Positions 30,801-36,800 of a stretch of 64,000 bases of DNA are shown here, piece by piece. Under the pieces are notes generated by a model, which saw only the letters and a list, made by a program, of their open reading frames with translations, was not told where the DNA came from and did no database searches. The DNA lies in the NCBI GenBank assembly GCA_009869945.1, contig WIXG01000043.1, positions 1 to 64,000 of the forward strand, given 5' to 3'. A program made the translations under genes and the position numbers. The stretch is from Mesaphorura yosii (lineage: Eukaryota > Arthropoda > Collembola > Poduromorpha > Tullbergiidae). Each line of letters begins with the position of its first letter. The stretch's first letter is position 1.

Positions 30801-33800
30801 ATCAAGAATGACATTAAATAATTTCCTTGAAAGTGTTTTTTCATGTTTTTGTGATCATAATCCATACTTATGGCAAGAAGTTGGAAGGAATTCAACGGAG
30901 GGAGAAAGTTTCATCAGCGCAAGAATTTAGTAGAAAACGACTCAATTATCATCACGCTCTACCTGCGCTCGCAATCTGCTGCAGGTTTTATCGCCTTCGT
31001 CGGCCATTCCCCACTGAAGAGAAAGTAGAACAAGATTGTGTATGCACATTTTAAGAGACCATTTAGATTATAAAGTCAGTTTTGCATGAGTGCACAAAGC
31101 AGTAAAAGTAAAAGTAAATTTCAGCGACGCAAAGCAGTCAGTCACCAGTCACCTGCTGTTCGCGGTTATAGTTTAAAGCATACGTACACCACGCCAGGCC
31201 AGTCTCCAGTGCCTAAGCAAATCAATTTATTTGCCTAGGAGCATGAGTAAATTTTGGCTTTGCCTTTACCTCCAAGACTTCCATTTCCATTTTCAACCAC
31301 ACTTGAACCATATTCGCGTTCACCTTCGAAAACGCCTTTACATTTTCTTTGATAGCGATAACCAACGGTACCACTTTGTACAATGGTACATAATAGCGAT
31401 GAATTATTTATAAACTCATATATAAAAAAAACAATCAAAATCAACTTTGCTACTTGTATTTCTGTCCAACCACCAAAAACATAGGAACGGGTTCAGCGGG
31501 TGACTTTATTAAAGAAAAATAAACCAGCAATGCAGTACAAGAAAGCGAGCGACAAGCAAGAAATGCAGCCCGTGCGTGGTAGAAATTCTTTGAACACTAT
31601 ATCAAAAATATGTGCGTTGCAAGGCAGGAGTGAGCTTGATACAAAAGAAATGTGTGATGTATTGTTGCGTCGTTGTGTGTGTGCTTGTGCTAGTGCTGCT
31701 GGGTTATAAAGTTGTCATTTCTCATAATCTTGATTCTTGACGTCTACAACCCGGAGAGCGGAGACAAAGTATAAAATTATTCATTAGATTCTGGCTTCTG
31801 GGCAGAGTCGAGCCTGAATTCTGAAATCACGATAATGCATCAACTCAAGATCAGGGCAATCATGAAAGAAGTTGTAGTTGTGACTTGTTTGCTTTGGGGC
31901 AGATGTTTCTTCTGGCGCTCGCGAATCTCTTGCACGCTGCAAGCTGCAAAAGATGTCGATGACGGATGATGGTTCCAAGAAAAAGTTGTCCAAGTCTCAA
32001 ATATTGTTCTTGTCATGGAATTGGAGTAAGAATAAAACCCGTCCCATTGCTATGCGCCTTCCGTACTGTGCTGTGCCAAAGTCATATAGAAAAGTTGAAT
32101 CCTTAATTTCCAAGTTGCAGAAACTCCCCTTCTGTTCCATTTTCGAATTGCTACCGTAACATTATTTTTGTTGTACAGCAGCGCGTTGCCATTATTGCTT
32201 TTTTGTCCGAATCACATCTGTTTACCCCACGGAAGGATCAAAGTTTGTATCAGCATCAGCAGTGCCATACTGCACGTACTCTTAACGCTAATCCTCATTG
32301 AATGCGTGAATGCGTTGCTTGGAAGCTCCATGCTTGGTGATTTGGGACTCGGAGTCGTGAACTGAAGCGCATCACATCATGTGTACTCCCGTGCTCGAAA
32401 GGAACTGCTTGGTGAATTTCAATTACAAAGGGTTCAAATTCCCTGCGCTGTTGTACGGCACCTTCGAAATTAATTTAAGCCTGGATTTGCAGTGTCAGTC
32501 AACAGTGCGCTGTGCTGTGCTGGAAGAAAAAAGTTCATATGCATGTAAATTGGGTCCAAATGAATTGTGAACTGTTTACTCCTTTTCAGATAGTTGCATG
32601 CATTAAATGTGTCAATTCCCATTTGAGCAATTCGTGAATTTTAATAATCCAGTTTGACATTCTCGCTCCCCAATTGACTGTGCGCTGGCTGGGTTGCTTC
32701 GCGCTGCCTGGAGCTCACGGTTCACTCAATCGTGCTAAATGTGAATGTACACACATGTGCACCGTGTAATCACTCCAAAATGGCAATAGGAAAGGGTTAT
32801 CCGTCATCAGACAAGTAATTACTCATGTTAAGCTCAGCTTTCGAGCTCCGGACGTTTGAACGTGAATTTACAACAGGGAAGCTCGGTTTGCAGTTCGCAT
32901 TTCGCACTTGATTTAATTCACGCCCTTCATGACCTCACCAAATGATACGGTCTTGCTCCGACAATAATTTACGCACCTGTTTACAGCAACACACATGACG
33001 AAGTGCCAGTTTAATTCTGAAATCCACAGACTAGAAAGCAAGAAGGAGGAAACTTTTGTAAAATTCAGGTTCTTATGACAATTTCAACTCATTTGTAACG
33101 GTTGAAAGCATCTGCAATGAGATGACTGCCAGTCTGATAAAGCGGTTGCATTCATTCGCTCTTTTCGTTAATGTTAATAAACATGTTCCACTGATTCTAC
33201 TCCAGCTTCAATTCCAGTGCTGGTAATAGTACAGCACTGTATACTGTCAGGCACGCCATGCAAAATAATTCTGAATATCTCTAATTTGCGCCCAGAGCCG
33301 GAGGTCGAGGGCGCGTAGCGAGTTGCGTGTGCGTTATATAAATTATTCCCAAACTGTGATGACAGCTCAACACGAAGCTTGATTTATAACTCAGCACTGA
33401 ATAATCATTTTGCACAACTTGTTATCTCGCATTCAGCAAAGTAGGCAGGCACTCAACTAGCTCTAGCTCCAGCCCCGAATATGTGCGATCTCAACTTCAG
33501 ACTTCAAGTGCCGCAACTTTTGCACGAATTTTGAGTTAAGTGTACAAATCTGTGACAACGTTAGGCGTGGGGTTCGAGAGCAATCGGTTCAAGTATTTTC
33601 GCGTACGTTATGTAATCGGATAACAGGAGCCAGGCGGAGCCATGTGACTGCGTACTGGTGATAAAATGTGTTTCCCAGACTCAGCGATCAATCCAGTCAA
33701 TAGCGAGGTTCGGCAATTTCTTCAACAATGAAGCTCCACGCTACCATTGTTCTAGTTGCAGCTCTATTATTCTGTGCGAATGCAAAGCACCCGCGTGATA

Positions 33801-36800
33801 TCTGCGTCAAATACTGCGATGGAACCGATCCAACCCTGATCGACTCATTGACACTAAGAGCTGCTGTATCAAATGCCTCCGAAGTGCCATGGGTCATTAC
33901 ACTGCACGTTACAGACGAAGAGAATATGGGCTTGGCAACGATTGAAGGAGGCCAGCCTGGAGACACGGTCTGGCTAGACAGATCATTTGACGGAGGCCTC
34001 TCCTGGGAACCTAACGGAAGTCATTTAGGGGACGCTGAAATTCCAACTGGAGCCACAAATGTGTCAACAAGTTAGCCCAATCTTACCTTTACCACCGAAT
34101 CAAAATGTTCCTAATTCTAACATGGTCTGTACTGTACAGCGTTGTTCAACATTGACGACCCCGCAAACCGTGGATTGGGAGCTCTGAGAGTTTGCGCACG
34201 ACCTGTTTCACTTGGTCGTGGCATTTGCACCGAGTGGGCTCGATCGACAGTGCTGGCAACAAATCCGACCGAGGCAGCAGCGACAGCTTTGATGCAGTAC
34301 TTTGATGGACAGTTGTGGCACACAATTGGATGGTGGAACTCAGCGAATGCACTCACGGCATTAATTGATTACATGCAAGTCACCGGGAGCAGAGACTTCT
34401 TATGGCTCGTGGATTACGTGTTTGTGGAAAACTTGGACGGATGGGACGGCAACTATACAAGCGATGCACTGGATGACACCGAGTGGTGGGCGCTGAACTG
34501 GGTCGCTGCGTACGACTTGACTGGAGACAGAAAATACTTGGACATGGCCATATTTGATGCTGACTACATTTATCAGTATGTTGACGATGTCTGCGGCGGA
34601 GGCGTCTGGTGGAACATTTATCGTACCTACAAGAATGCAATTACGAACGAACTCTACATTCAACTGGCTGCGGCATTGCACAACCGAATTCCAGGAGACA
34701 CAAAATACTTGGCACAGGCCGAAAGTTTGTGGAGATGGTTTAGGGCAAGTGGAATGATTAACGGCGATTATTTGATCAACGATGGACTGACGGATGATTG
34801 TCGAAACAACGGTGATACGACATGGACCTATAATCAAGGTAATTGGAATTTACCATATTACTCTTTATATCAGCCAAAGTTTAATTTCCCTCTGTTCGAA
34901 TAGGCGTTATCCTCGGAGCTCTTGCCGAATTGTTCACTGCCACGAATAAGTTTGAATATCTGCTTGATGCCATCAACATCGCGACAGCCGTTGTCAACAG
35001 TCCGAATCTGAGCCCGAATGGAATTCTCAGAGAGCCTTGCGAAGTATGGACTGGCCCACCGAGTTGTGGTCCAGCTCCTGACGGATGCGACTGCAACCAA
35101 ATCTCATTCAAGGGAATTTTCATGCGGAACATCGCCAAACTTAACCGACTCTCGCCGAATGGACTGGGCTTCACGGAGTACATCAAGCGCCAAGGAGACT
35201 CAAATTATCAATACAATCGGAACTCATTGAATCAGTACGGAGTTCATTATGCTGGACCGTTCAATGATCTGAATGGTGGCACACTTCAGAGCGGATTGGA
35301 AGCATTCACTGCTGGCTGGGGCTGGTCTTAAGCCTATCGCTAAAGCTGAACTTTTAATCCATAAATCACACCATTGTTAAATAAAGGGAATGAATGAATG
35401 AATAAAACACGGCATGCGAATCTAATTCGAAATTCCAATTCCAATTATGGATGAATATTACAGTGCAATGGAAGCAAATATTTTAATCATCCGACGCACT
35501 GCCACATGGCGGAATCTTAATAGCATTTCTTGGTAGTATAGCCAGGCTGCATTCATAAATCTCGTGCATATTAATGAAGTCATGATAAAGGGCAGTTAAA
35601 AAGTTACGCAGGAGCACCAAACTGGCCGAACACACAGTCCCCTTAATTAGATTCAATGAAGAGTTTATTAAGATTCATGTTCGTAGCGTTATTAAATCAT
35701 CATCTCTTACATAGCGCCATTGCCATTACTCGTGACATGAGCCGCTTTTGATTAAATGCACGACCAAAAGTTCCGAAAATAGCAGCACGTAAAAGTTCAG
35801 CTATTCCATTTCCAGTTCTTGAATCAACATAAGAGATTCCGGCGTCGTACGCACGCTCGTAATGAGATTCTTTTTTATGATGTGAGAAATTTATGACTAA
35901 ACATATAATTCTTTATGATTTAAGTGTTTACTTTGTGCTCGTTTTTAAATTCTGTATGCTGGGTGTGCCAGCCAAACAACTTTCTTACTTGTTTGCAAGA
36001 TAAAGAATTCTTGTTCTGCATTTTATGCCTCTACTTTCTTATTTTACTCTACAGGGCTCATGAGCGTGCAATGTTGGGAGTCGAGTCAAGCTTCCAAATC
36101 TCAGTGCCTGTCTGGTCTCAGCCTCATTTTACAAACAAAACTCGTCTTGTCTAAATTAAGGCCATTTCTCCATTGCCATCGCCAGAAGAAAGTTTATTAG
36201 CATGCTCGCTGTAATGTAACACAAACTCAAGAAAATGCAGCAGTGCAGTGGTAAAAATAAGAATGAGATTCTGAATAAATAAAACTCTACTCAAGCATTT
36301 TTACATTTTCTGACTCCAGCTCCAGCTGCACATTAATTTACTCATAGTGCTTATCTCATTATTCCATTGTCTGAATTCGAGTCGACCTATCTTTGCTATT
36401 GCTTGGTTTGGCCCTGCTGCCGGAGTTTAATTAGTTGCAAGCTCAAGAAGGCTGATACAAAAGACTTCGCATTCACATGTTGTCTTCCTTTAATGCACAA
36501 CTGGATAAGCTCCAATTACAATTTTGCAATGTGACTCGCTAATAAAAACGCGTCTCGAGGGGTTCATTGCAAATTTATTGTTTAAGTGACTGATTTTAAT
36601 GCTACTTGAAAACATTGCCCAATCCAACTTGCCTTCAACGATCGAGTCTCACGCGCATGCCTACAAGACTTGCTTTGGTTTTGTGGTAATGAATAAATTT
36701 CTTTTATAGCCATTTTAAAAGCTTTCACAGCTACCGCGGAGTGCGTTCGAAACTCAAAATGGTGGCAATTAAATTACAGCCTGCGCTTGGGCCTGAACTT

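Follow-up and report, generated by a model that had tools for sequence, protein, structure and literature searches.

How does a springtail come to carry a gene for a secreted enzyme of glycoside hydrolase family 76 (GH76), and what might that enzyme do? The gene lies in the first 64,000 nucleotides of a 333-kb contig (WIXG01000043.1) of Mesaphorura yosii (assembly GCA_009869945.1, 93 Mb in 1127 contigs); we refer to this whole stretch as the window. At 33728-35331 on the forward strand, three exons are spliced into a 1470-bp reading frame that encodes a secreted-type GH76 protein of 489 amino acids plus a stop codon. Our reading, to which we give a probability of roughly 80%, is that a two-domain GH76 enzyme of the fungal/bacterial-mixed type was transferred long ago from a bacterium into the arthropod nuclear genome and was then duplicated. 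The window gene is real and integrated. Judging from its sequence, it is probably functional and transferred, as a first-pass annotation of the window had proposed: it is spliced, keeps an intact Asp pair and has a bacterial two-domain layout.

Both introns are needed because the first contains an in-frame TAG and the second (65 bp) shifts the frame. A long reading frame is therefore obtained only after splicing. The first-pass annotation had described two short phase-1 introns and AATAAA, and the joining of the exons at GT-AG borders and the hexamers behind the stop codon (Table 1) bear this out. The Pfam GH76 model PF03663 matched residues 160-434 of the predicted protein with 136.7 bits against a cut-off of 25.9 (E-value 1.8e-39). 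The N-terminus, [21 protein letters not shown], is signal-peptide-like by eye, and the signal peptide claimed earlier is retained in that form. As annotated, the protein contains YCDGTDP and [10 protein letters not shown], both within a domain common to bacterial GH76 enzymes. The best match in plasmid records, protein WP_237308399.1 from a Streptomyces sp. SAT1 plasmid, is 47.5% identical over 94% of the query (E-value 8e-113), which excludes a chance match.

The animal exons that were thought to flank the gene belong to one TRIM-like gene. A RING/B-box exon lies upstream and two coiled-coil-like exons lie downstream, all on the same strand. The upstream exon matches the B-box family PF00643 above its cut-off and RING models below theirs, and the two downstream exons, taken singly, match no Pfam family at 1e-3. 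The three exons join in phase 0, and joining them extends the TRIM match. Against the Protein Data Bank (PDB), the joined protein matches TRIM-type chains, the best being Midline-1 across the B-boxes (3.4e-11). Matches to TRIM72 are weaker (E-values of 1.2e-4 to 6.1e-4, no single stretch being significant alone) and span residues 289/290 to 425/427 of the joined protein, so that all three exons are crossed. We take the host gene to be TRIM9/67. On this reading, the GH76 gene would be nested on the same strand within an 11,519-bp intron (28880-40398) of the TRIM-like gene. No tandem repeats were found between 28 and 41 kb, and the 3-kb 3' flank of the GH76 gene matched only itself in the genome, in a search that skips very common words.

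There is at least one further GH76 place in the genome, on the 318-kb contig C50. This second copy is intronless, with an unbroken frame of 477 amino acids from the first Met and a PF03663 score of 171.2 bits. It is 55% identical to the window protein, and both frames are open. A Cys-loop receptor frame on the opposite strand ends 24 bp past the stop codon of the second copy, tail-to-tail with it (2487-2512 of locus L001). This nearest receptor frame carries the end of a neurotransmitter-gated channel domain, with a weak match (E-value 0.0035), and the next receptor frame carries its beginning (7.5e-17). The second copy is therefore also linked to an animal gene, and with 24 bp between the two stop codons the 3' untranslated regions should overlap. 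At the level of the assembly, both GH76 copies are physically linked with native genes.

The codon usage of the window copy is host-like. Its GC content at third codon positions (GC3) is 0.512, compared with 0.522 for pooled native sequence and 0.92 for a Streptomyces GH76 relative. Its relative synonymous codon usage correlates at 0.83 with the native stretches and at 0.42 with the Streptomyces gene; the latter two correlate with each other at 0.43. The native pool consists of five chosen stretches of the window (the joined TRIM exons, a trypsin, an SDF transporter, a K2P-like frame and a second TRIM exon), of which the K2P-like frame has only a weak Pfam hit and some, taken stop to stop, may include a little intron sequence.

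Among the bacterial, plasmid, phage, viral and PDB sequences, the nearest relatives of both copies are bacterial. One of the 11 plasmid records with matches covered at least 80% of the query, and phage records gave three weak core matches. No relatives were found in the viral-contig scans or in the first bacterial-genome scan. A second scan of bacterial genomes gave at least 593 stretches and at least 213 relatives, of which we took the best 80, ranked by similarity to one Streptomyces protein. This ranking biases the sample toward the kin of that protein, and a closer donor may be missed. By record title, 79 of these best 80 loci are from Actinomycetota and one is from Myxococcota. The layout that the first-pass annotation called actinobacterial thus does occur in Actinomycetota but is found in some Myxococcota as well. 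With the second copy as query and a threshold of 1e-10, 7 of 396 genomes from the actinobacterial phylum and 16 of 195 from the myxococcal phylum had matches, seven of those 16 with the full two-domain form; at 1e-40, 7 of 394 genomes of one actinobacterial class had matches (centre genomes included throughout). These low counts indicate a patchy distribution. By score, Myxococcota rank first against the second copy (524 bits, the best actinobacterial row reaching 511) and close to first against the window copy (413 versus 419).

Both arthropod proteins have an N-terminal domain with four conserved cysteines (C26, C30, C133 and C144) and, in our reading, a stretch that resembles an Asp box (in the window copy, SFDGGLSW); the GH76 domain follows. 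Exon 1 has no significant Pfam model (BNR, E-value 0.2). The N-terminal domain occurs twice in tandem before GH76 in the actinobacterial paralogues that we viewed (L049 and L092). In three proteins of the actinobacterial phylum (L093, L095 and L096), presumably NlpC/P60 proteins, it lies at the C-terminus of a different protein. In two actinobacterial GH76 rows, L098 and L100, the match starts only at about residue 150. We read the domain as a putative mobile bacterial module, and perhaps it represents an unnamed domain family. That the arthropod proteins carry it favours a bacterial source over a fungal one.

We built two trees. The first had 65 rows: 62 hand-picked from 120 matching open reading frames, the two arthropod proteins and one fungal fragment, the core of CtGH76 from Chaetomium thermophilum. 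The second had 57 rows, eight long, fragmentary or distant rows having been dropped. In the first tree, the arthropod copies pair with each other (support 96/91) outside a clade of 50 bacterial two-domain rows (100/99), and the CtGH76 fragment with actinobacterial row L098 (100/99) branches outside both the pair and this bacterial crown. The topology was unchanged in the second tree (support for the pair 92/81). The approximately unbiased (AU) test rejected a grouping of the pair with either half of the Actinomycetota and Myxococcota crown (p-AU 0.0039 and 0.0041), and it rejected Myxococcota as the direct donor that the top scores of the second copy had suggested (p-AU 0.022). These p-values are optimistic because the constrained groups were named after seeing the tree. 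Both copies share altered residues at positions on which the crown agrees with most outgroup rows (R113S, R246K, R307Q, Y437F and A445G, among others); elsewhere, both share the commonest outgroup state as opposed to that of the crown (F174W and Y209F, among others). The position of the pair, beyond the bacterial two-domain enzymes in the sample, lends no support to a recent donor among Actinomycetota; it supports an old transfer or an unsampled donor. The phylogeny suggested as a check by the first-pass annotation returned bacterial rows as the nearest but does not bear out the actinobacterial donor in the form proposed. We read the tree as suggesting a single old transfer, from a stem lineage or one that was not sampled, with duplication afterwards; two transfers would also be compatible with it.

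We compared the catalytic region with that of CtGH76. D226 and D227 of the window copy, recognized earlier as the catalytic pair of the GH76 core, align with D163 and D164 (CtGH76 numbering from PMC12295086). Of the nine catalytic and canyon positions, the window copy keeps eight (W179, W180, D226, D227, Y278, W343, Y345 and F416) and the second copy keeps all nine. All four disulfide cysteines are present in both. The fungal/bacterial-mixed subfamily is characterized, in PMC12295086, by mostly >35% identity, canyon aromatics and two disulfides; the window copy has 52% identity and the above residues relative to one member, CtGH76. For the 185 columns that are ≥95% conserved in the 50 bacterial rows, 134 are kept in the window copy and 152 in the second copy. 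That conserved columns are kept despite ~45% divergence between two open copies points to long-standing constraint. Of the two, the window copy departs from the conserved state at more positions and sits on the longer branch, and its specificity may have shifted.

In the mechanism that we propose, a bacterium with an enzyme composed of an Asp-box-like domain and GH76 would have been the old donor to the arthropod, and the gene would have duplicated after acquisition. The window gene would be transcribed and spliced, and its product would be secreted, perhaps into the gut. The protein would fold as an (alpha/alpha)6 barrel in which D226 and D227 would hydrolyse alpha-1,6-mannan or glycosylphosphatidylinositol (GPI)-core mannosides of fungal walls by a retaining mechanism. 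The N-terminal domain would serve as an accessory, perhaps substrate-binding, module. Fungal-mannan degradation by the window enzyme is plausible on the basis of its residues. A fuller scenario is that of an animal GH76 lineage in which the two-domain enzyme was acquired once, before the crown or from an unsampled lineage, was duplicated, and was selected as a secreted enzyme against fungal mannan or GPI-linked mannoproteins, in feeding or in antifungal defence; we advance this scenario only tentatively.

Several observations weigh against our interpretation. The two arthropod copies fall outside the bacterial crown as sampled, and both rows were flagged as long by the tree program. In the second tree, the two copies are flagged as joined long branches with unusual residue make-up. 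A tree that separates the two copies and joins the second one to the bacterial crown was not rejected (p-AU 0.31). The codon usage of the second copy is less host-like, with a correlation of 0.72 to native and 0.58 to Streptomyces usage and a GC3 of 0.632 versus 0.522. Relatives were sought among bacterial genomes, plasmid, phage and viral records and PDB chains, a scope outside which vertical descent and a eukaryotic donor fall. At the active site, the first-pass annotation had taken all catalytic motifs to be intact; the Asp pair is, but opposite W149 of CtGH76 the window copy has G215, next to W216. Its proposal of a fungal-mannan-degrading enzyme stays plausible, but CtGH76, the nearest solved relative, gave no alpha-1,6-mannanase activity in thin-layer chromatography and may act on GPI-core glycans, according to PMC12295086.

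The alternatives to an old bacterial transfer differ in how they account for these data. A fungus or another eukaryote, such as an oomycete with an acquired bacterial GH76, could have been the donor. The fungal CtGH76 match scored 199 bits, compared with at most ~60 bits for the solved enzymes of bacteria; the GH76 enzymes of mycoparasitic Pythium group with bacterial ones (PMC7720654); and a eukaryotic donor fits the position of the arthropod pair. However, the CtGH76 match (phmmer) starts at query residue 172 with no N-terminal domain seen, whereas in the bacterial two-domain rows it begins no later than residue 26. Some actinobacterial rows also lack a match to the N-terminal domain, and the CtGH76 core groups with one of these, L098, rather than with the arthropod pair. 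We consider a eukaryotic donor improbable. Survival of an old animal GH76 family in a few lineages, without any transfer, is much less likely still. The arthropod proteins are 43-57% identical to bacterial enzymes over their whole length, accessory domain included, and a 2025 GH76 network of 15,624 sequences holds 9876 fungal and 5450 bacterial ones (PMC12295086), which by subtraction leaves 298 others. Least likely is that a microbial gene was joined into an animal contig by contamination or misassembly. The introns, the host codon usage, the absence of N runs from the window and the nesting within one TRIM-like gene speak against it, as does a second, diverged copy on another contig beside an animal channel frame. 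Recent contamination is rejected by the introns, codon usage and nesting.

A question separate from its origin is whether the protein is an alpha-1,6-mannanase or instead a transglycosidase, an enzyme of GPI glycans or a non-catalytic effector. Dfg5-type GH76 enzymes are transferases, and CtGH76, in addition to the failed mannanase assay, binds GPI-core fragments (PMC12295086). Set against this are the signal-peptide-like start, the intact DD motif and the canyon residues of the window copy, together with the validated alpha-1,6-mannanase activity of two bacterial GH76 subfamilies reported in the same paper. Such a non-mannanase function seems to us possible, if the less probable outcome.

Table 1. 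Features of the GH76 gene and its TRIM-like host gene in the window
Feature	Position	Strand	Description
Exon 1, GH76 gene	33728..34070	+	Signal-peptide-like start and most of the N-terminal domain; homology to bacterial enzymes
Intron 1	34071..34139	+	69 bp, GT-AG, phase 1, in-frame TAG inside
Exon 2, GH76 gene	34140..34838	+	Remainder of the N-terminal domain; beginning of the GH76 domain, including D226/D227
Intron 2	34839..34903	+	65 bp, GT-AG, phase 1, frame-shifting if retained
Exon 3, GH76 gene	34904..35331	+	Remaining GH76 domain and stop codon
Two AATAAA polyadenylation-signal hexamers	35380..35406	+	Starts at 35380 and 35401, 3' of the stop codon
TRIM-like host gene, RING/B-box exon	27869..28879	+	Upstream of the GH76 gene; followed by GTAAGA, phase 0
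TRIM-like host gene, next coiled-coil-like exon	40399..40494	+	Downstream of the GH76 gene
TRIM-like host gene, further coiled-coil-like exon	43671..43904	+	

Other features of the genome were noted in passing. A search of the assembly for mitochondrial COX1 gave no match, and four weak matches to OS-D chemosensory proteins, a family restricted to arthropods, suggest an arthropod host. An exon similar to the RING/B-box exon of the host gene is located at 1025-2080 on the reverse strand, ~26 kb away from it and in the opposite orientation; by their similarity, the two exons mark a duplicated TRIM-like gene. Between 5571 and 20973 on the forward strand, at least seven multi-exon genes that look like membrane-protein genes form a tandem array. 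Seven of their last exons can be aligned over ~160 amino acids; searches with these gave no match to a Pfam family at 1e-3 or to a PDB chain at an E-value of 1. The array is possibly a lineage-specific chemoreceptor-like family. Elsewhere in the assembly, twelve DIOX_N-type dioxygenase places (L116-L127) were seen on contigs C759, C614, C382, C651, C1065, C722, C764, C420, C63 and C118, and these are possibly more transferred genes. For a frame on C614, thymine dioxygenase is the nearest match (1.4e-27) and IPNS a distant one (~5e-4), and an identity as IPNS was rejected on these values.

If the enzyme is active, the animal itself could attack alpha-mannan or mannoproteins of yeasts and fungi. 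Such an attack would otherwise be expected of the animal's microbes. With an active enzyme, GH76 would also join the carbohydrate enzymes of microbial origin in soil arthropods. The nested site within a TRIM-like intron, together with the diverged second copy, would allow the transfer to be dated from related genomes.

We compared the gene with known systems. The closest solved structure is that of CtGH76 (PDB 9r4k), a fungal/bacterial-mixed GH76 enzyme with which the window copy shares 124 of 239 aligned residues, the DD motif, the canyon aromatics except W149 and the four disulfide cysteines. Unlike the arthropod copies, CtGH76 shows no N-terminal domain in the alignment, which begins at query residue 172. 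The bacterial two-domain enzymes of Actinomycetota and some Myxococcota, for example those of Streptomyces sp. SAT1 and Hyalangium versicolor, have the same domain order as both arthropod copies. Full-length rows with a single N-terminal domain share 43-49% identity with the window copy and 48-57% with the second copy. In contrast to these enzymes, one arthropod copy has introns, its codon usage is host-like, and the pair branches outside the 50 sampled crown rows. In mycoparasitic Pythium, GH76 enzymes that group with bacterial ones were read as transferred and as aimed at fungal walls (PMC7720654); these are likewise eukaryotic enzymes, but their host is an oomycete and not an animal. A table in a forest-soil eukaryote complementary-DNA study gives GH76 counts of 0 and 2 (PMC3253082). 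Among the papers listed on GH76 or carbohydrate-active enzymes in springtails, arthropods, mites and metazoa, no title or opening line of an abstract names an animal GH76, and GH76 is absent from the main texts searched on springtail genomes and animal cell-wall enzymes. The genome of the springtail Folsomia candida holds 809 foreign genes, 229 of them with CAZy domains (PMC5490193), and its transferred enzymes include a GH43 (PMC9460274). These are likewise microbial carbohydrate enzymes integrated in a soil arthropod genome; GH76 does not appear in the main texts of the two papers, but may be in the supplementary list of the 809 genes. Transferred carbohydrate-active enzymes in springtails are already known. 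The window gene is of an ordinary kind for soil arthropods and is unusual in its family and in its nested site.

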